From an uncultured bacterium (GTDB lineage Bacteria; Spirochaetota; Leptospiria; Turneriellales; Turneriellaceae), in assembly GCA_938038265.1 (NCBI GenBank), contig CALHRC010000055.1, positions 1-33,768 on the forward strand: a stretch of DNA of 33,768 nt, in the 5' to 3' direction. Below are positions 8,273-18,818 of this stretch, one piece after another. The position numbers and the translations under genes were made by a program. The first letter of the stretch is position 1; every line of letters starts with the position of its first letter. Below the pieces are notes generated by a model. That model was not told where the DNA came from. It ran no database searches and saw nothing but the letters and a program-made list of their open reading frames with translations.

Positions 8273-8306
8273 TTGACGATAGGTGTTAAATTTAATTATT
8301 TATAAT
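8273..8306 (+). promoter_or_regulatory. Candidate promoter of the cys leader and operon
   Basis: TATAAT at 8301-8306 is a perfect -10 box located four bases before the ATG of the upstream ORF. TTGACG at 8273-8278 is a good -35 but is 22 bases away from it. With normal 17-base spacing the TTGACG would pair with TTATTT (8296-8301). In either reading the transcript starts at or within a few bases of the leader ATG, which suggests a leaderless uORF. Confidence 0.4.
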
Positions 8307-8310
8307 AGTA

Positions 8311-8406
8311 ATGAAAAAGCCGAACCTTATACCGGTGTTTTTGTCGCAGAACAATTGCTTTCTTTCTGTACATAGCAGCTCTTCTTTTTGTTCCTGTTGT
8401 TGTTAA
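8311..8406 (+). CDS. Cysteine-rich leader peptide of the cys operon
   Basis: This 31-codon ORF starts with ATG at 8311 and ends with TAA at 8404. The peptide begins MKKPNLIPVF, has one Cys at position 16, a run of four Ser (22-25), and ends FCSCCC. Four of the last five codons are TGT (codons 27, 29, 30 and 31), only 44 bases before the cysK start. Chance placement of four Cys codons at the end of a short ORF directly upstream of cysteine biosynthesis genes is improbable. The reading is a leader peptide whose translation senses charged tRNA-Cys, comparable in idea to amino-acid attenuator leaders and to the Cys-rich uORFs known from actinobacterial cys genes. No Shine-Dalgarno precedes it and the -10 box abuts the ATG, so it may be translated from a leaderless mRNA. 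It is too short for normal gene calling. Confidence 0.75.
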   Translation: MKKPNLIPVFLSQNNCFLSVHSSSSFCSCCC

Positions 8407-8445
8407 CCTTTTAAACTACAAATTTCCCTCTTTTGTATAGGAGTA
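8389..8445 (+). promoter_or_regulatory. Predicted translational attenuator: Cys codons pair with cysK RBS
   Basis: The leader-peptide codons 27-29 (UGUUCCUGU, 8389-8397) can pair without mismatch with AUAGGAGUA (8437-8445), which contains the cysK ribosome binding site. The helix has nine bp, three of them G-U, and encloses a 39-base loop. A ribosome stalled on the Cys codons would hold the first strand and leave the cysK site free. A ribosome that finishes and leaves would let the helix form and block initiation. A competing pairing exists between CAGAACA (8347-8353) and UGUUCCUG (8389-8396, one bulge). No T-run terminator is present in the leader, so control at translation fits better than transcription termination. 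Confidence 0.6.
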
Positions 8446-8450
8446 CCATT

Positions 8451-9386
8451 ATGAAAATTAAAACTATATTAGATTATATTGGCAACACGCCTCATATGAG
8501 AGTCAATCGCATTTTTGGCAGTGATTATGAAGTGTGGGTAAAATTAGAGCGGCAAAATCCCGGCGGCAGTATTAAAGATCGCATTGCCCTTGCCATGATT
8601 GAAGATGCTGAGCGCAGTGGTAAGTTAAAACCAGGTGGGGTTATTATTGAACCCACTTCTGGCAATACAGGGGTAGGTCTAGCTTTAGTAGCTGCAGTGA
8701 AGGGGTATAGGGTGATTTTGGTTATGCCCGAGTCGATGTCAATTGAGCGGCGCAAGATCATGGCTGCTTATGGCGCTGAATTTGACCTGACCCCTAAAGA
8801 AAAAGGTATGAAGGGTGCTATTGAGCGCGCCAACGAATTGCTCACAGCCATCCCCGGTAGTTGGATGCCGCAGCAGTTTGAAAACGAAGCTAATGTAGAG
8901 GTACACCGCCGCACTACCGCGCAAGAGATCCTCAATGATTTTCCAGATGGTTTAGATGCCATCATTACAGGGGTAGGCACGGGAGGCCATATTTCGGGGG
9001 TGGCAGAAATCCTCAAACAAAAATGGCCATCGCTGAAGGTATTTGCGGTAGAGCCTGAGGCCTCTCCCGTACTAAGTGGTGGCAAACCAGGTCCCCATCC
9101 CATCCAAGGTATTGGGGCGGGCTTTGTGCCGGCCATTTTACGAACAGGCTTATTGGATGGTATTATTCAAGTTTCAAAAGAAGAAGCCTTTACCTATGCC
9201 CGTCGGGCTGCTCGGGAAGAAGGGCTTTTTATGGGTATTTCCAGTGGGGCTTCTTTTGCGGCCGTGGCTAAAAAATTGCCTGATTTAGCTAAAGGTAGCC
9301 GGATATTGACCTTTAACTATGATACGGGTGAGCGCTACCTTTCAATTGAAAATTTATTTAGCGATCCACCCCTTGTGGCCCAATAA
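8451..9386 (+). CDS. cysK: Cysteine synthase (O-acetylserine sulfhydrylase)
   Basis: This is a PLP enzyme that makes cysteine from O-acetylserine and sulfide, the last step of the pathway encoded here. It has 311 residues, the normal length. The Schiff-base lysine is K42 in [11 protein letters not shown]. The substrate/PLP loop TSGNTG is at 69-74. [10 protein letters not shown] is the phosphate-binding loop and GISSGAS lies near the C-terminus. The frame is open from a TTG at 8433, but TAGGAG (8438-8443) sets the start at the ATG 8451, seven bases downstream. The N-terminal motif reads NTPHMRV instead of the common NTPLVRL. A cystathionine beta-synthase-like activity cannot be excluded by sequence alone, but the context favours CysK. 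It is the first main gene behind the Cys-rich leader, and its stop overlaps the next start (TAATG). Confidence 0.94.
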
Positions 9387-9664
9387 TGAGTGAACAGAGT
9401 TTAACTTCATCTCGCCCGAAAGCGGGTGGCGTTGTTGTGGAGAAACATTGGCGGAGCCTGCTTAAAACCATTTCTTGGCGGCTATTAGGGACCCTTGATA
9501 CCATTGTGCTCTCGTTTATCATTACGGGTAGTTTGAAAATGGCCGCCTCTATTGGCGGGGTGGAGTTAATTACAAAGATGGTGCTCTACTATTTGCATGA
9601 GCGAGTCTGGAGTAAGCTTAATATAGGTAAAGAAATTATCCAAAATCCCGATTATGAAATTTGA
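9386..9664 (+). CDS. DUF2061 small membrane protein
   Basis: This 92-residue protein matches the DUF2061 pattern: a basic entry (KHWRSLLKTISWRLLGTLDT), a hydrophobic helix (IVLSFIITGSL), a second segment, and the conserved close ELITKMVLYYLHERVW. Two membrane passes are likely, at about residues 38-55 and 58-78. The molecular function of DUF2061 is not established. Relatives occur next to or fused with sulfate-activation genes, and here it is locked inside the cys operon. It overlaps cysK by one base (TAATG) and cysH by 11 bases. A role in sulfate or sulfite handling at the membrane is a fair inference, since the operon carries no recognisable permease. Confidence 0.88.
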   Translation: MSEQSLTSSRPKAGGVVVEKHWRSLLKTISWRLLGTLDTIVLSFIITGSLKMAASIGGVELITKMVLYYLHERVWSKLNIGKEIIQNPDYEI

Positions 9665-10400
9665 AATTCAACCTACTATACCAGATAAGCTGCAACCGTT
9701 AGTTTATCGCCTATTGCCGTTCATTGCAGAGAAAAAACCGCAAGAGGCAATTCGTGAGTGCGTACAAGAATTTCCCCAGGCAGTAAAATTTTCTACGAGT
9801 TTAGGGATGGAAGACCAAGTACTAACTGATATGCTCTCTAAAATGCAGGTTATGCAGCAGGTGGATGTCTTTACCTTAGATACAGGCCGGCTTTTTGAAG
9901 AGACCCAATACCTGTTACATTTAACCATAAAACGTTATGGAACAATTAAAGTATATTTCCCTGACTATGAAAAAGTAGAAGCGCTGGTAAATGAAAAGGG
10001 ATCTTATAGTTTTTACAATTCAGTCGAAGATCGCAAAGAATGCTGCTATATCCGCAAGGTATTGCCTTTACAGAGGGCTTTAGCTGGTGGTCAGGTGTGG
10101 CTTACGGGTATTCGGGCGGCGCAATCGGTTAGTCGCGAGGCCATGCCGGCAGTTGAGTGGGATAGCAGTTACCAAATCTTAAAAGTGCATCCCTTATTTT
10201 ATTTTTCGGATTCTGAAATAGAAGCTTATGTAAAAGACAATTCAGTGCTTGTCAATGAGCTGCACGCCAAAGGGTATCCCAGCATTGGTTGTGCGCCTTG
10301 TACCCGCGCGATAAAACCAGGCGAAGATATTCGCGCTGGCCGCTGGTGGTGGGAGCAAGAAGGCGCTAAAGAATGTGGCTTACATGTCAAGAAAACATAG
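9654..10400 (+). CDS. cysH: Adenylyl-sulfate (APS) reductase, iron-sulfur type
   Basis: This enzyme reduces activated sulfate to sulfite with thioredoxin as electron donor. It has 248 residues and a PP-loop-type N-terminal fold (SLGMEDQVLTDML, then TLDTGRLFEETQ). The CC...CxxC signature of the 4Fe-4S class is complete: C130-C131 in KECCYIRKV and C213/C216 in GCAPCTR. The catalytic Cys is C241 in KECGLH near the C-terminus. Known enzymes with this cluster usually take APS, whereas the cluster-free type takes PAPS. That agrees with the lack of an APS kinase in the operon. It starts 11 bases inside the DUF2061 gene, so its translation is probably coupled. Confidence 0.94.
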   Translation: MKFEIQPTIPDKLQPLVYRLLPFIAEKKPQEAIRECVQEFPQAVKFSTSLGMEDQVLTDMLSKMQVMQQVDVFTLDTGRLFEETQYLLHLTIKRYGTIKVYFPDYEKVEALVNEKGSYSFYNSVEDRKECCYIRKVLPLQRALAGGQVWLTGIRAAQSVSREAMPAVEWDSSYQILKVHPLFYFSDSEIEAYVKDNSVLVNELHAKGYPSIGCAPCTRAIKPGEDIRAGRWWWEQEGAKECGLHVKKT

Positions 10401-10421: not shown

Positions 10422-11327
10422 ATGAGTTCTTATCATATCAATTATTTAGATGCATTAGAAGCTGAGGCCATCTATATTTTACGGGAAACAGCGGCACAGT
10501 TTGAAAATCCCGCTTTGCTTTTTTCGGGTGGCAAAGATTCTATTGTATTAGTTCATCTGGCCCTGAAAGCTTTTCGCCCGGCAAAATTTCCTTTTCCTTT
10601 GTTACATATTGATACTGGCCACAATTTTCCCGAAACTTTGCAGTTTAGAGATAATTTAATTTCTAAAATTAAAGAGCGGCTTATTGTGCGCTATGTGCAA
10701 GATAGCATTGATAAAGGGCGGGTGAAAGAAGAGACGGGCAAATATGCCAGCCGCAACGCCCTGCAGACAGTTACCTTGCTTGATGCAATTTCTGAGTTAC
10801 AGTTAGATGCCTGCATTGGAGGGGCACGCCGTGATGAAGAAAAAGCCCGGGCTAAAGAGCGGATTTTTTCGGTGCGTGATGAATTTGGCCAGTGGGAGCC
10901 GCGTATGCAGCGCCCCGAGCTTTGGAACTTATATAATGGTAAAATTCGTAAAGGAGAAAATGTGCGGGTCTTCCCCATTAGTAATTTTACAGAGCTGGAT
11001 GTCTGGCGCTATATTGAGCGCGAGGGGATTGAACTGCCCTCTTTATACTTTACTCATGAACGCGATGTCTTTGAGCGCGATGGTCTGTGGTATCCCGATT
11101 CTCCTTATATCCACCGCGAACCGCAAGAAACAGTGGTGCGTAAAAAAGTCCGCTTTCGCACCATTGGCGATATGACTTGCACAGCGGCAGTGCTCTCCCA
11201 AGCGGACAATGTCGCTGCCATTATTGAAGAGCTTATCAAGGCAGAAACTACCGAGCGCGGCTCACGCTTAGATGACAAACGTTCCGAAGCGGCAATGGAA
11301 GAGCGTAAACGAGGGGGCTATTTCTAA
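10422..11327 (+). CDS. cysD: Sulfate adenylyltransferase subunit 2
   Basis: This is the catalytic ATP sulfurylase subunit, which forms APS from sulfate and ATP in complex with the GTPase CysN. It has 301 residues. The PP-loop SGGKDS is at residues 35-40, followed by HIDTGHNFPETL. GGARRDEEKARAKERIFS and the C-terminal RFRTIGDMTCTAAV are diagnostic of CysD. An AAAGGTAG ribosome site precedes the ATG in the 21-base gap after cysH. This is the only real gap in the operon. The stop overlaps the cysN start (TAATG), so equal synthesis of the two subunits is expected. Confidence 0.97.
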   Translation: MSSYHINYLDALEAEAIYILRETAAQFENPALLFSGGKDSIVLVHLALKAFRPAKFPFPLLHIDTGHNFPETLQFRDNLISKIKERLIVRYVQDSIDKGRVKEETGKYASRNALQTVTLLDAISELQLDACIGGARRDEEKARAKERIFSVRDEFGQWEPRMQRPELWNLYNGKIRKGENVRVFPISNFTELDVWRYIEREGIELPSLYFTHERDVFERDGLWYPDSPYIHREPQETVVRKKVRFRTIGDMTCTAAVLSQADNVAAIIEELIKAETTERGSRLDDKRSEAAMEERKRGGYF

Positions 11328-12571
11328 TGGAATTACTACGTTTTTTAACTGCCGGCAGTGTGGATGATGGCAAAAGTACTTTAATTGGCCGCCTACTCTA
11401 TGATTCGCGTAGCTTACTGCGCGATCAACTTGAGGCCATTGAAAAAAGTAGCCGAAAAAAGGGGGATGATTTTTTAAATTTAGCCTTAGCTACCGATGGC
11501 CTCAAAGCTGAGAGAGAGCAGGGAATTACCATTGATGTGGCCTATAAGTATTTTTCTACCCCCAAAAGAAAATTTATTATCGCTGATACCCCCGGCCATA
11601 TTCAATATACCCGCAATATGGTCACCGGCGCTTCCACCGCCAACCTAATGGTTGTTTTAGTGGATGCCCGCAATGGCGTCACAGAACAAACGCGGCGGCA
11701 TTCCATTATTGCCTCCCTGTTAGCCATCCCCCATCTGGTGGTCTGCATTAATAAGATGGATTTAGTGGGTTTCTCGCAAGAAAGGTTTGAGCAAATTAAA
11801 GAAGAGTTTTTACAATTTTCAGGCAAACTCAATATTAAAGACATTACTTTTATTCCCATCAGTGCCTTACAAGGAGATAACGTCGTAAACCTTTCAGATA
11901 ATATGCCTTGGTATGAAGGGCGTTCTCTGTTGCACTACTTAGAAGAAGTCTATATTGAAAGCGATAGAAATTTACAAAACCCACGTTTCCCTGTGCAATA
12001 TGTCATCCGGCCAGAAACCGCCGAATACCCCGACTACCGCGCTTATGCGGGCATGGTGGCCAGTGGCATTTTTAAGCAGGGGGATGCCATTCTTGTGTTA
12101 CCAGCTGGTTTTACAACGACTATTACCAGTATTGATTTTTATGGTAAACAACTTCCCGAAGCGTTTGCTCCCCAATCGGTTGCCATCCGCTTAAGTGACA
12201 ATCTTGATATTGCCCGGGGGGATGTTTTTGTCGATGCGGTCAATCCCCCCCGAATTGGCCAAGATATTTTAGCAAATGTCTGTTGGATGAGTTCAGACGA
12301 ATTGCGCCCCGGTACTGTGTTAATCTTACAACAAAACACTCGCCGGGTAAAAGCTAAAATTACAGAAATAGTTTACAAAATAGAAATCAATACTTTAGAT
12401 GAGATTGTCGGTGTTGGCGCTCTCAAAATGAATGACATTGCTTTAGTTAAAATTCGCACGGCTGCGCCCGTTTTGTTAGATGATTATAAGTTTAATCGCG
12501 CTACAGGTTCTTTTATTTTAATTGATGAGAACACCAACCTAACTGCAGCAGCGGGGGTGATTCGAGGCTAA
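11327..12571 (+). CDS. cysN: Sulfate adenylyltransferase subunit 1 (GTPase)
   Basis: This GTPase subunit drives the unfavourable ATP sulfurylase reaction by GTP hydrolysis. The P-loop is GSVDDGKST (10-18), the G3 motif DTPGH and the G4 motif NKMD, followed by EF-Tu-like beta-barrel domains. It has 414 residues, somewhat shorter than the roughly 475 of Escherichia coli CysN. There is no fused CysC (APS kinase) domain, as found in CysNC proteins, so PAPS is not expected to be made here. The start codon overlaps the cysD stop by one base, and the next gene begins after a one-base gap. Confidence 0.96.
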   Translation: MELLRFLTAGSVDDGKSTLIGRLLYDSRSLLRDQLEAIEKSSRKKGDDFLNLALATDGLKAEREQGITIDVAYKYFSTPKRKFIIADTPGHIQYTRNMVTGASTANLMVVLVDARNGVTEQTRRHSIIASLLAIPHLVVCINKMDLVGFSQERFEQIKEEFLQFSGKLNIKDITFIPISALQGDNVVNLSDNMPWYEGRSLLHYLEEVYIESDRNLQNPRFPVQYVIRPETAEYPDYRAYAGMVASGIFKQGDAILVLPAGFTTTITSIDFYGKQLPEAFAPQSVAIRLSDNLDIARGDVFVDAVNPPRIGQDILANVCWMSSDELRPGTVLILQQNTRRVKAKITEIVYKIEINTLDEIVGVGALKMNDIALVKIRTAAPVLLDDYKFNRATGSFILIDENTNLTAAAGVIRG

Positions 12572-12572
12572 A

Positions 12573-13337
12573 ATGCAACCAGTGGTTTTTATTGGCGCAG
12601 GGCCCGGCAATGCGGAGCTTTTAACCTTAAAAGGCGCCCGTCTATTACAAACAGCTGAAGTGTGTCTTTATGATGCCCTCATTGAGTTTGAGAGTTTTGA
12701 CACCCTGTTACCCCAAGATTGCTTGCGTATTCCGGTGGGCAAGCGCTGTGGTGCACATTCTAAAACCCAGGACGAAATTTGTGAGCTCATCATCCATTAT
12801 GCGCTTTCGGGAAAAAAAACCATTCGACTTAAAGGAGGCGATCCTGCTTTATTTGGTAGGTTAGGGGAGGAGCTATTGGCCCTACATCGTGCAGGCATTC
12901 CCTGGGAAATCATACCGGGAGTCTCTTCGATGAATGCAGCGGCAGCTGATTTTTCGCTACCCCTTACTTTAAGGGGGGTGTCAGATTGTATCTGTCTTAT
13001 AAGCGGGCATGATTTAGTGCGTAAACCTGCAGAGACCTTAGAAAAATTAGCTCACTACCCCGGTACAATTGTTATTTTTATGGGAGCTAAACGCCGGCGG
13101 GAAATTTGCCAAACCCTATTAGCCTATGGTGCCGATGGCAATAAACCAGTGCGCCTTATTGAAAATGCAGGGCGTAAAACCGCGCGCAGTACCTTATGGA
13201 CGCTCGGCGAGGCAGCAGTTGATGAAAGTCTATTAGAAAGTGATGCGCCAGCCTTACTTTTAATTGGCAACTCCCTACTCAATGAATGGGATGCCTTACT
13301 AAAATCGACCCCTACGGAACTTTCCTTTGTCCACTGA
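12573..13337 (+). CDS. cobA: Uroporphyrinogen-III C-methyltransferase
   Basis: This SAM-dependent enzyme makes precorrin-2 from uroporphyrinogen III, the branch step to siroheme. It has 254 residues, the length of single-domain SUMT enzymes. Visible motifs are GAGPGNAELLTLKGARLL at the N-terminus, RLKGGDPALFGR, and PGVSSMNAAAA, all typical of the family. Siroheme is the cofactor of the CysI sulfite reductase encoded next door, which explains its place in the operon. The gene starts one base after cysN and its end overlaps the following gene by 11 bases. In enteric bacteria this activity is the C-terminal half of CysG; here it is a separate gene. Confidence 0.93.
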   Translation: MQPVVFIGAGPGNAELLTLKGARLLQTAEVCLYDALIEFESFDTLLPQDCLRIPVGKRCGAHSKTQDEICELIIHYALSGKKTIRLKGGDPALFGRLGEELLALHRAGIPWEIIPGVSSMNAAAADFSLPLTLRGVSDCICLISGHDLVRKPAETLEKLAHYPGTIVIFMGAKRRREICQTLLAYGADGNKPVRLIENAGRKTARSTLWTLGEAAVDESLLESDAPALLLIGNSLLNEWDALLKSTPTELSFVH

Positions 13338-13914
13338 AACTGAACTGTTACCTATTTTTTTAAAGCTCAACCAAAAAAACGTTTTAGTTGTCGGGGGGGG
13401 GAGTGTAGCACGAGAAAAAATTAAAACCCTATTGACTACCGGCGCCAATATCACCGTAATCTCTCCGCAAACGAAACCAGAAATTGATGCTTGGGAACAG
13501 GCGGGTTGTTTGGTTGTCTTGCGTCGTGAGGTGAGGGAAAGTGATCTTGATGGTAAGTTTTTGGTCTATGTGGCCACAGGAGTGCCTGAAGTTAACCAGC
13601 GTCTCTGGGAATATGCTAAGCAACATAATATTTTGCTGAATACGGTGGATAATCCACCCCTATGTGATTTTTACTCTGCTGCTGTGGTAAAACGCGGCCC
13701 ATGGCGCGTTGCTATCTCAACCCAGGGGAATTTTGCCGGTCTTGCCCAAGCCCTGCAGCAGGTTTTATCTGCCATTATACCAGAAGAGAGTTTAGCCGAT
13801 TGGGACGAATTGCTATCCTGGCGCAAAAAATTAGCCACCTACCTCAAAACCCAACCACAACGTACAGCTTACTTACGAAAACTTTTACGAAAGATTAAAA
13901 AAAAAGTACTGTAA
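13327..13914 (+). CDS. Precorrin-2 dehydrogenase / sirohydrochlorin ferrochelatase (Met8-like)
   Basis: This enzyme oxidises precorrin-2 with NAD and probably inserts iron to give siroheme, matching yeast Met8p and the N-terminal half of CysG. It has 195 residues. The nucleotide-binding loop VLVVGGGSVAREK lies near residues 19-31. NTVDNPPLCDFYSAAVVKRG is the conserved segment with the catalytic aspartate region, shown here by its key residues D-N-P-C-D-F. The C-terminus is very basic (RKLLRKIKKKVL). The start is a TTG at 13327; no ATG occurs in frame near the start, and the TTG overlaps the cobA stop. It is the last gene of the plus-strand cys operon and ends 14 bases before the convergent cysI. 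Confidence 0.92.
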   Translation: MSTETELLPIFLKLNQKNVLVVGGGSVAREKIKTLLTTGANITVISPQTKPEIDAWEQAGCLVVLRREVRESDLDGKFLVYVATGVPEVNQRLWEYAKQHNILLNTVDNPPLCDFYSAAVVKRGPWRVAISTQGNFAGLAQALQQVLSAIIPEESLADWDELLSWRKKLATYLKTQPQRTAYLRKLLRKIKKKVL

Positions 13915-17474: not shown

Positions 17475-17781
17475 GACCCTTTATGTGTGCATCGGCAAGT
17501 TAGGTTTAATGTTTAAACTGTTTTTAACATATCGCCTGAGAATTTCTAAGAATATTAAGGATTTCTTTTGGATAAAGTATTATGGAAAGTAATTATCTGC
17601 CAATTTTACGTTTTGCTTTGTACAGGCAATTCTTCTTAAAGCTATGGGGGATATTCTTATAGTTTGGCAAGCAGCCCCCCGGGGTAAGCAGGTGTCTTTA
17701 GGTTGGTCGTAGCAGGCAACAGGCGCACCAGCCATCTGATGCGCTAATTGCTGTTTGTTTGTTAAAACGCGTCAACCGGTT
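17475..17781. other. Spacer upstream of cysJ
   Basis: These 307 bases hold the cysJI promoter region and the 3' flank of the WDH-repeat gene. On the minus strand a possible promoter is TTGCCT followed after 15 bases by TAAAAT (about 17626-17600). I searched for a Cys-rich leader like that of cysK. The short frames starting with ATG on the minus strand end within a few codons and contain no Cys. No clear terminator or riboswitch was seen. Confidence 0.5.
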
Positions 17782-18213
17782 TTAGGTTGTTGGGCCGCCG
17801 GGGTTAGTGTTACTGAGTTTTCGCAAGGCCTCTACTAAATTACCCAGATAAGTTCTAGTCTCATCGGTTAGGTTGACCCCGCTGCTCTTGATATCCGCCA
17901 ATAATTTTTCCCAGGCACTGTGATCCCAGCCATTTTTATTGGCTTGCACAAATTCAATGGCCTGCTCTTTGATGGTATTGAGTACTTTGCTGACGCCTTC
18001 CGTTTGGCTTGCTTGGTGGTAGATACCTTTCATGCCTTCAAGTACTTCGCCAAAACGATGTTTTGCCTCGTCACTGAGTTCTAAACCTTTCTTTTGTAGG
18101 TCATTTAATAGTTGGTTCCATTGCAGGTGATCCCATTGGCCCTTTTGCTCTTCAACAAATTTACGAGCCTTATCTAACATATCGTTGATTGGTTTGAAAT
18201 TGTCGGTTGCCAT
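17782..18213 (-). CDS. Small helical protein with two WDH repeats
   Basis: This 143-residue soluble protein is built from two copies of a roughly 50-residue unit. Unit 1 (about residues 14-65) and unit 2 (about 83-137) share the pattern FV-x-x-x-K-x-x-WDH-x-x-W-x-x-LL-x-D-(6)-L-(S/T)-DE-(5)-G-x-x-(V/L)-E. In detail, WDHLQWNQLLNDLQKKG aligns with WDHSAWEKLLADIKSSG. Both are predicted to be helical. There is no signal peptide and no cysteine. The ribosome site GGAGG (18223-18219) is excellent, seven bases before the ATG, suggesting strong expression. I do not recognise a named family. It follows a set of envelope genes on the same strand but is separated from them by a 195-base repeat-rich spacer. 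Confidence 0.75.
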   Translation of the reverse strand: MATDNFKPINDMLDKARKFVEEQKGQWDHLQWNQLLNDLQKKGLELSDEAKHRFGEVLEGMKGIYHQASQTEGVSKVLNTIKEQAIEFVQANKNGWDHSAWEKLLADIKSSGVNLTDETRTYLGNLVEALRKLSNTNPGGPTT

Positions 18214-18251
18214 ACATTCCTCCGGTGTTTATTAGTTTACCAGTTTAAAGT

Positions 18252-18292
18252 AAACAACATTAGGCACAGAATACACCGGCCTAATGTTGTTT
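18252..18292. repeat. Perfect 14-bp inverted repeat
   Basis: AAACAACATTAGGC (18252-18265) and GCCTAATGTTGTTT (18279-18292) are exact reverse complements around a 13-base loop. The element lies about 40 bases upstream of the WDH-repeat gene and downstream of the small lipoprotein gene. It may be a terminator for the latter or an operator/leader structure for the former. The bases after the stem are only moderately T-rich in either direction. Confidence 0.7.
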
Positions 18293-18381
18293 GTGTTTGT
18301 TCACCAAACATTAGGTTCACCTACAAGGAGTCAGGCACATAATGTAAAGCTTTTTTTAAGAAGGTTGGCTAATGTATTAGG
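18258..18381. repeat. Array of CATTAGGC-type motifs
   Basis: The core of the inverted repeat recurs nearby: CATTAGGC at 18258-18265, GCCTAATG at 18279-18286, AAACATTAGG at 18306-18315, a related GGCACATAATGT around 18334-18345, and GCTAATGTATTAGGC at about 18368-18382. AGGCACA also occurs twice (in the loop region and again near 18333). The density of one motif in about 125 bases points to repeated binding sites or a decayed palindromic element. Confidence 0.5.
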
Positions 18382-18408
18382 CAGGGTTTTGTCGTTGCTT
18401 AAGAGCAT

Positions 18409-18813
18409 TCAACGAAATTCCACTTTTTTGCGGATTTGCGGCAATTCCACAACGGAGACCTGGTTATTACTGTCAAAATAAGCAATGCCCTTTACACTGC
18501 CATCTTCATGAAATACAGTACTTGAGGCGGGGGCCCCTTGAAAGTAGTTAATCTTTTGTTTTAAGCTGCCATTGGGGTTAAAATAGCGGATTTCTTGCAG
18601 TTGGTCATTTTCTACCCGAAAAATTTTTTCGGCAATGCCATCCCCATCTTTATCTTCAATAAAATCATAGCTATTTTCACCCGTGCGGACAATTTTGCCA
18701 ATTAGTTCATTGTTCTGGCGCCATTCTTTTTGCCCGCCTAACTCCAGCTCTTGCGAGCTGGAGCAAAACAGAAGGGCTAAGGCGACACTGCAAAGAGCAA
18801 TGGTCTGTTTCAT
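18409..18813 (-). CDS. Small predicted lipoprotein with MORN-like strands
   Basis: This 134-residue protein starts MKQTIALCSVALALLFCSSS, a signal peptide followed by a cysteine in a loose lipobox (LLFC). Such relaxed lipoboxes are accepted in spirochaetes. The mature part contains DKDGDGIAEK, which looks like a calcium-binding loop. It then has repeated short strands of the type YFNPNGSLKQKINYF and FHEDGSVKGIAYFD, the pattern of MORN-variant or toxin-immunity-like beta repeats. It is encoded five bases after the kelch-like lipoprotein gene, so both come from one transcript. Its role is unknown. A surface or periplasmic partner of the neighbouring envelope proteins is a reasonable guess. Confidence 0.7.
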   Translation of the reverse strand: MKQTIALCSVALALLFCSSSQELELGGQKEWRQNNELIGKIVRTGENSYDFIEDKDGDGIAEKIFRVENDQLQEIRYFNPNGSLKQKINYFQGAPASSTVFHEDGSVKGIAYFDSNNQVSVVELPQIRKKVEFR

Positions 18814-18818
18814 ATAAC

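Follow-up and report, generated by a model that had tools for sequence, protein, structure and literature searches.

A probable cysteine-sensing leader ORF upstream of the cysK sulfate-reduction operon in a spirochaete-like bacterium

The short open reading frame (ORF) directly upstream of cysK in the window, i.e. the whole 33,768-nt stretch of DNA analysed here, is very probably a cysteine-sensing leader, whatever the mechanism of its output. Its assignment as a translational attenuator of the cysK operon goes one step further and appears probable. Support comes from the ORF itself, from its Cys tail, which is the sole feature conserved among the leaders of four genomes, from its position ahead of the operon, and from a predicted RNA structure in one relative (G015) that behaves as such an attenuator should. 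On this basis we infer that the leader is transcribed and translated and that it responds to Cys-tRNA; for the masking strand in the window itself, folding models offer a weakly predicted candidate.

According to the proposed mechanism, transcription would begin at 8311 or a few bases 5' of it, and a ribosome would read the short ORF. When Cys-tRNA is plentiful, this ribosome would read codons 27-31, reach the stop codon (8404-8406) and leave, whereupon the RNA would fold over the cysK Shine-Dalgarno sequence (8439-8443) and the operon would be poorly translated. When Cys-tRNA is scarce, the ribosome would wait in the Cys tract with its footprint over the 3' end of the ORF and the start of the spacer; this would keep the RNA from folding over the Shine-Dalgarno sequence, and cysK would be translated.

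The leader ORF and the operon behind it

The genome carrying the window (G000) is a 2.6 Mb draft, 83% complete, from a GTDB order that is sampled by 18 genomes. The positions of the leader, its promoter-like elements and the downstream genes are collected in Table 1. As the original prediction had stated, the ORF comprises 31 codons and closes with Cys-Ser-Cys-Cys-Cys (TGT TCC TGT TGT TGT TAA), a TATAAT hexamer lies four bases before its ATG, and no Shine-Dalgarno sequence precedes that ATG in the window. No Pfam family matches the leader peptide, and 44 nt separate the end of the ORF from the cysK ATG at 8451. The absence of a T-run terminator, riboswitch or T-box was likewise borne out: the terminator scan and the fold gave no terminator-like site or T-run hairpin in the window leader, and the window holds no Rfam 15 match to a riboswitch, T-box or other leader RNA at gathering thresholds.

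Four nucleotides make a short discriminator for a promoter with TATAAT, thus the exact transcript start is uncertain. In the closest relative, G003, a TATACT lies 17 nt 3' of the TTGACG, with 9 nt between it and the leader ATG; the TTGACG keeps the same distance from the ATG in both genomes (32 nt); this common spacing supports a putative transcript start at the ATG or a few bases off. With a -10 box 4-9 nt 5' of the ATG in G000 and G003, leaderless initiation, which had been suggested for the window, is plausible in these two genomes. It is not general to the group, since the upstream ORFs (uORFs) of two further relatives, G014 and G015, have purine-rich, Shine-Dalgarno-like sequences before their ATG.

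The cysK gene heads seven same-strand genes that form a sulfate-reduction operon, on which cysI and cysJ converge. In the window a DUF2061 gene stands between cysK and cysH; in G003 cysH follows directly after cysK and leaves no room for it. A possible Cys leader before cysJ (17475-18818, minus strand) was rejected, its Cys codons being merely scattered and without conservation in G003.

Table 1. Features of the cysK leader region and the downstream operon (window coordinates)
Feature	Position	Strand	Evidence or remark
-35-like hexamer TTGACG	8273..8278	+	exactly 32 nt 5' of the leader ATG; same spacing in G003
-10-like hexamer TATAAT	8301..8306	+	sequence; ends 4 nt before the leader ATG
Leader ORF, 31 codons, MKKPNLIPVFLSQNNCFLSVHSSSSFCSCCC*	8311..8406	+	sequence, shuffle test, small-ORF scan; Cys tail conserved in G003, G015 and G014
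Cys-Ser-Cys-Cys-Cys, codons 27-31, proposed sensing codons	8389..8403	+	sequence; TGYTGYTGYTRA survey of G000
5' strand of weak predicted hairpin (8408-8413, 8417-8422), pairing with 8432-8443	8408..8422	+	covers the cysK Shine-Dalgarno; pair probabilities 0.45-0.59; not better than shuffles
AGGAG, cysK Shine-Dalgarno	8439..8443	+	sequence; predicted all-open probability 0.014
cysK, cysteine synthase A, first structural gene	8451..9386	+	TIGR01139, 407 bits vs cut-off 351
DUF2061 small membrane protein	9386..9664	+	PF09834
cysH, (P)APS reductase	9654..10400	+	NF002537
cysD, sulfate adenylyltransferase small subunit	10422..11327	+	TIGR02039
cysN, sulfate adenylyltransferase large subunit	11327..12571	+	TIGR02034
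Uroporphyrinogen-III C-methyltransferase (siroheme)	12573..13337	+	TIGR01469
Siroheme synthase N-terminal-domain protein (CysG N-terminal type)	13327..13914	+	TIGR01470

Specificity and conservation of the Cys tail

The Cys tail exceeds what chance would give: when the intergenic region of the window (230 bases) was shuffled 20,000 times with dinucleotides preserved, an ORF with at least four Cys codons among its last six arose in 4 shuffles. Cys accounts for 53 of the 5386 codons of 14 window genes. In G003, where six terminal Cys are observed, none of 10,000 shuffles reached even four. A scan for small ORFs (ATG start, 10-50 codons, outside long ORFs, before a gene) in 22 sulfur-gene neighbourhoods (~290 kb) returned 125 ORFs; a Cys tail was present in three, all of which precede the sulfate-reduction operons described here, and the fourth Cys-tailed leader, that of G003, was hidden from the scan because the long cysK frame extends upstream over it. 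Genome-wide, a pattern search with TGYTGYTGYTRA gave 14 occurrences in G000 and 20 in G003. Outside long ORFs the pattern occurs in G000 in the cysK leader only, the rest lying in or opposite long ORFs, and in G003 in the cysK leader and at one other place (L207) with no recognised sulfur gene nearby.

The same leader architecture is present in three relatives from the GTDB order, which together with G000 represent two families. G003 belongs to another genus; its cysK is 88% identical and is followed by cysH, cysD, cysN and then two siroheme-type genes. Its leader, MEINFSVSEKSAKSSQILHSAYIDHISAEFCTSICCCCCC, ends 52 nt before cysK. Hereby, the upstream neighbour differs, being a helicase-like gene in the same direction in G003 and a divergent M23 peptidase gene in the window, and the leader thus belongs with cysK. 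G015 and G014, members of the other family, were found by a class-wide CysH search; their leaders (MIEKYKNEFSLNIFLAVPKSCNCLCRCCC and MHKRNDALKTKNTMSPFIISSCFCQICC, respectively) both stand before a cysH-sulfite reductase-cysD-cysN operon. The four leader peptides, 28 to 40 residues in length, have nothing but the Cys tail in common, the spacing of which varies as well (CSCCC, CCCCCC, CNCLCRCCC, CFCQICC), and in all four genomes the leader precedes the first gene of the sulfate-reduction operon. The earlier proposal of a Cys-sensing leader is strongly supported by this conservation of the Cys tail alone across four genomes and two families.

Relatives lacking the leader, which the original prediction had named as evidence against it where the cys operon is intact, count against it only loosely, their loci being organised differently and several of them carrying a transcription-factor gene by cysK. 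In the Turneriella-like genus (g6, family f4) the leader is absent, cysK is separate from cysHDN, and none of the cysH operons examined is preceded by a Cys-tailed uORF; in several of these genomes cysK adjoins a gene for a regulator of XRE type that carries a cupin-like tail (an assignment from sequence, not by family search). In G016 and G017 a gene for an Rrf2-type regulator adjoins cysK (by family search for G016). Elsewhere in the class, the cysK and cysH loci examined yielded no Cys-tailed leader. G000 itself has a distant homologue of the XRE-type regulator, which adjoins an ammonium-transporter-like gene. The leader form and a transcription-factor form, with an XRE-type or Rrf2 gene beside cysK, appear to replace each other inside a single small order.

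Predicted RNA structure and competing mechanisms

The structural prediction is strongest in G015, where the initiation region of cysH is predicted to base-pair with codons 18-23 of the uORF (AAAUCCUGUAAU with AUUGCAGGAUUU), with a dG of -16.2 and a probability of 0.99. The shuffle p of this pairing is 0.007, or ~0.03 after correction for the four leaders tested. The masking strand is a stretch of Ser-Cys codons which contains the first Cys codon, and the Shine-Dalgarno sequence is predicted to be more closed than in 100 of 100 shuffles. A ribosome placed at Cys27-29 is predicted to open it ~10^4-fold, an effect reached by 1 of 100 shuffles. The design advanced in the original prediction, in which the codon stretch serves as the anti-Shine-Dalgarno strand, may therefore be sound for the group, being strongly predicted in G015. 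With its 12-bp pairing between the uORF and the cysH Shine-Dalgarno, the G015 leader (L263, 1307-1470) has the clearest attenuator structure of the group and would make a good experimental model.

In the window, folding of the whole leader is no better than that of shuffles (z -0.03). The Shine-Dalgarno sequence is predicted to pair mainly with the spacer at 8408-8413, just 3' of the leader stop, with probabilities of ~0.5 (0.5-0.75 for any spacer pairing). With a ribosome placed at Cys30, the predicted open fraction goes from 0.014 up to 0.06, and 43% of the shuffles do equally well. The switch test in G003 gave a similar picture, masking and its relief by a stalled ribosome being no better than in shuffles, and in G014 no pairing of the leader with the cysH Shine-Dalgarno was found. 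A pairing of uORF codons 8-14 with the cysK start region of G000 (dG -12.6) was not counted, its shuffle p being 0.09. The masking strand is hence not conserved among the four leaders; drift of this strand beside a constant Cys tail is what a sensor made up of the codons would lead one to expect.

The foremost alternative to translational attenuation is Rho-dependent termination, which we consider unlikely. Hereby, the leader would equally sense Cys-tRNA and the output would be transcription: once the ribosome ends at the uORF stop, Rho would act on the C-rich, weakly structured RNA and cause termination before or within cysK, and a stalled ribosome would block Rho. Such a process fits the window leader, which has no intrinsic terminator, the lack of a conserved masking helix, and the excess of C over G in the uORF end and spacer of all four leaders; mycobacterial cys leaders are also devoid of terminators, and Rho-dependent termination was proposed for them for the same reason (Seliverstov et al. 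2005, PMC1262725). However, the spacers of G000 and G003 are short (44-52 nt), and the strong masking of the Shine-Dalgarno predicted in G015 speaks against it as well. Later work in M. smegmatis by Canestrari et al. in 2020 is, moreover, said to have favoured control at the ribosome binding site.

Translational attenuation in the exact form first proposed for G000, in which the RNA of codons 27-29 closes the cysK Shine-Dalgarno, is improbable. The nine pairs between 8389-8397 and 8437-8445 can indeed be written, three of them being G-U, and a Ser-Cys codon stretch is the predicted anti-Shine-Dalgarno strand in G015. The helix is nevertheless no more than expected by chance: its ensemble probability is 0.001-0.005, the MFE fold does not contain it, and 37% of the shuffles equal it in duplex energy. 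Moreover, its C-C core derives from the Ser28 codon (UCC), which is a Cys codon in G003, and the pairing is lost there.

Two readings that dispense with codon sensing altogether fare worse still. That the Cys-rich peptide itself is the effector, through thiol, metal or redox binding or nascent-chain arrest, rather than a counter of Cys-tRNA, is very improbable: metal binding or a reaction with oxidants would be conceivable for a cluster of Cys at the C-terminus, but only the Cys residues are conserved among the four peptides, at varying spacing and peptide length. It is equally hard to credit that a TTG/TGT triplet repeat gave rise to the Cys codons by chance in an ORF without function, since, although the tracts of G000 and G003 are partly TGT repeats that can expand by slippage and the extra TGYTGYTGYTRA match of G003 lies away from recognised sulfur genes, the tails of G014 and G015 are not simple repeats (TGT AAT TGC CTT TGT CGT TGC TGT TGT; TGT TTC TGT CAA ATC TGT TGC) and all four tails are in the Cys frame, end at the stop codon and have the same pathway downstream.

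Relation to known attenuators and other Cys-rich frames before cysK

Most descriptions of cysteine control in bacteria concern transcription factors (CysB, CymR, CysR) and riboswitches. Control in which the ribosome itself senses cysteine has been elucidated in mycobacteria, and for cysS in Rhodobacterales it has been predicted. In M. smegmatis, contiguous Cys codons in leaderless small ORFs control the translation of the downstream genes through cysteine-dependent attenuation, according to PMC9031893 and PMC13236596; both, and likewise PMC9094748, cite Canestrari et al. 2020 (Mol Microbiol 114:93). Like these polycysteine small ORFs, the leaders described here have a run of Cys codons near the stop, stand before a cys operon and have no intrinsic terminator; those of G000 and G003 may be leaderless as well, and a stalled ribosome is proposed to expose the ribosome binding site. 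They differ in phylum (probably Spirochaetota), share no sequence similarity other than Cys, and appear to have a Shine-Dalgarno before the uORF in G014 and G015. The uORFC-8-2 motif before cysS in Rhodobacterales (PMC8632094) likewise places tandem Cys codons in a uORF and has been proposed as a sensor of Cys-tRNA; it combines two Cys codons with two stems and an intrinsic terminator, and its target is cysteinyl-tRNA synthetase, whereas the window leader has none of these features. With the classical trp and his attenuators the window leader shares a peptide rich in the codon of the product of the pathway. Unlike them, it has no terminator, T-run or antiterminator, and its Cys codons abut the stop instead of preceding it by ~12-15 codons.

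Attenuation by a Cys-codon leader is thus of a known kind and, in this lineage, apparently undescribed: a literature search, in which subscription journals were thinly covered, found no paper on Cys-codon leaders in spirochaetes or their relatives. The same logic in an unrelated and unstudied lineage, with the Cys tail kept and both peptide and masking strand drifting, suggests that it evolves easily and repeatedly. The four leaders moreover offer clean comparative material on what must be conserved in a translational attenuator.

Further Cys-rich frames were seen upstream of cysK in other phyla. Six Ignavibacteriales genomes (L226 (=L066), L227, L228, L230, L232, L250) have a uORF with CCC, e.g. 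MKTKNINIIKNSNVTCCCLSSFKLWWKGTI, followed by a strong intrinsic terminator. Two Bacteroidota genomes (L073 (=L190) and L191, from the order of a Prolixibacteraceae bacterium) show the same design (MKILMPNTAVCCCCDFQKPQMEG, MTLNLNISCCCCCNVSHKNGSNDCVKM), with an ATGGAAG in the uORF facing a CTTCCAT of the terminator. In most of these eight loci a G-rich segment lies 20-23 nt after the Cys tract, and a terminator of the AAGCCCTTCC...GAAGGGCTTTTTT type ends the arrangement 25-82 nt before cysK. Antiterminator pairing, clearly above shuffles in two of the eight (p 0.007 and 0.003), is only suggestive as a prediction. None of the three loci tested matches Rfam, and no paper was found on terminator-type Cys attenuators before cysK in Ignavibacteriales or Bacteroidota; the loci are candidate classical Cys transcription attenuators, apparently undescribed. 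Taken with the probable translational form of the spirochaete-like order, in which the Cys tract stands at the stop, this candidate terminator form before cysK makes it reasonably likely that Cys-codon attenuation of cysteine synthesis arose independently in several phyla, as a general convergent device and not an actinobacterial peculiarity.

Other Cys-containing frames also lie upstream of cysK. In Pyxidicoccus fallax (L028), an in-frame ...TTTGAQCCCCCRVACACC lies ~110-250 nt upstream of cysK; this genome is GC-rich and full of such runs, and chance is harder to exclude. Similar short frames before the second cysK of G008 and G007 (L097 with ..DIHSLVGNCCRLSA.. and L098 with ..DFSSLACCCCTCPL..) fall in a divergent promoter region by an XRE-type regulator gene, where repeats that are possible or likely operators also lie, and may or may not be leaders. 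In Comamonadaceae and other Burkholderiales (L012, L027, L031, L038, L056 and others), a common repeat-like stretch upstream of cysK reads ..PTWYCCA*/WCCCA* in one frame and ..YLVLLRVEIARFTR..RLCCSDPHL.. in others, and is perhaps a conserved RNA or repeat.
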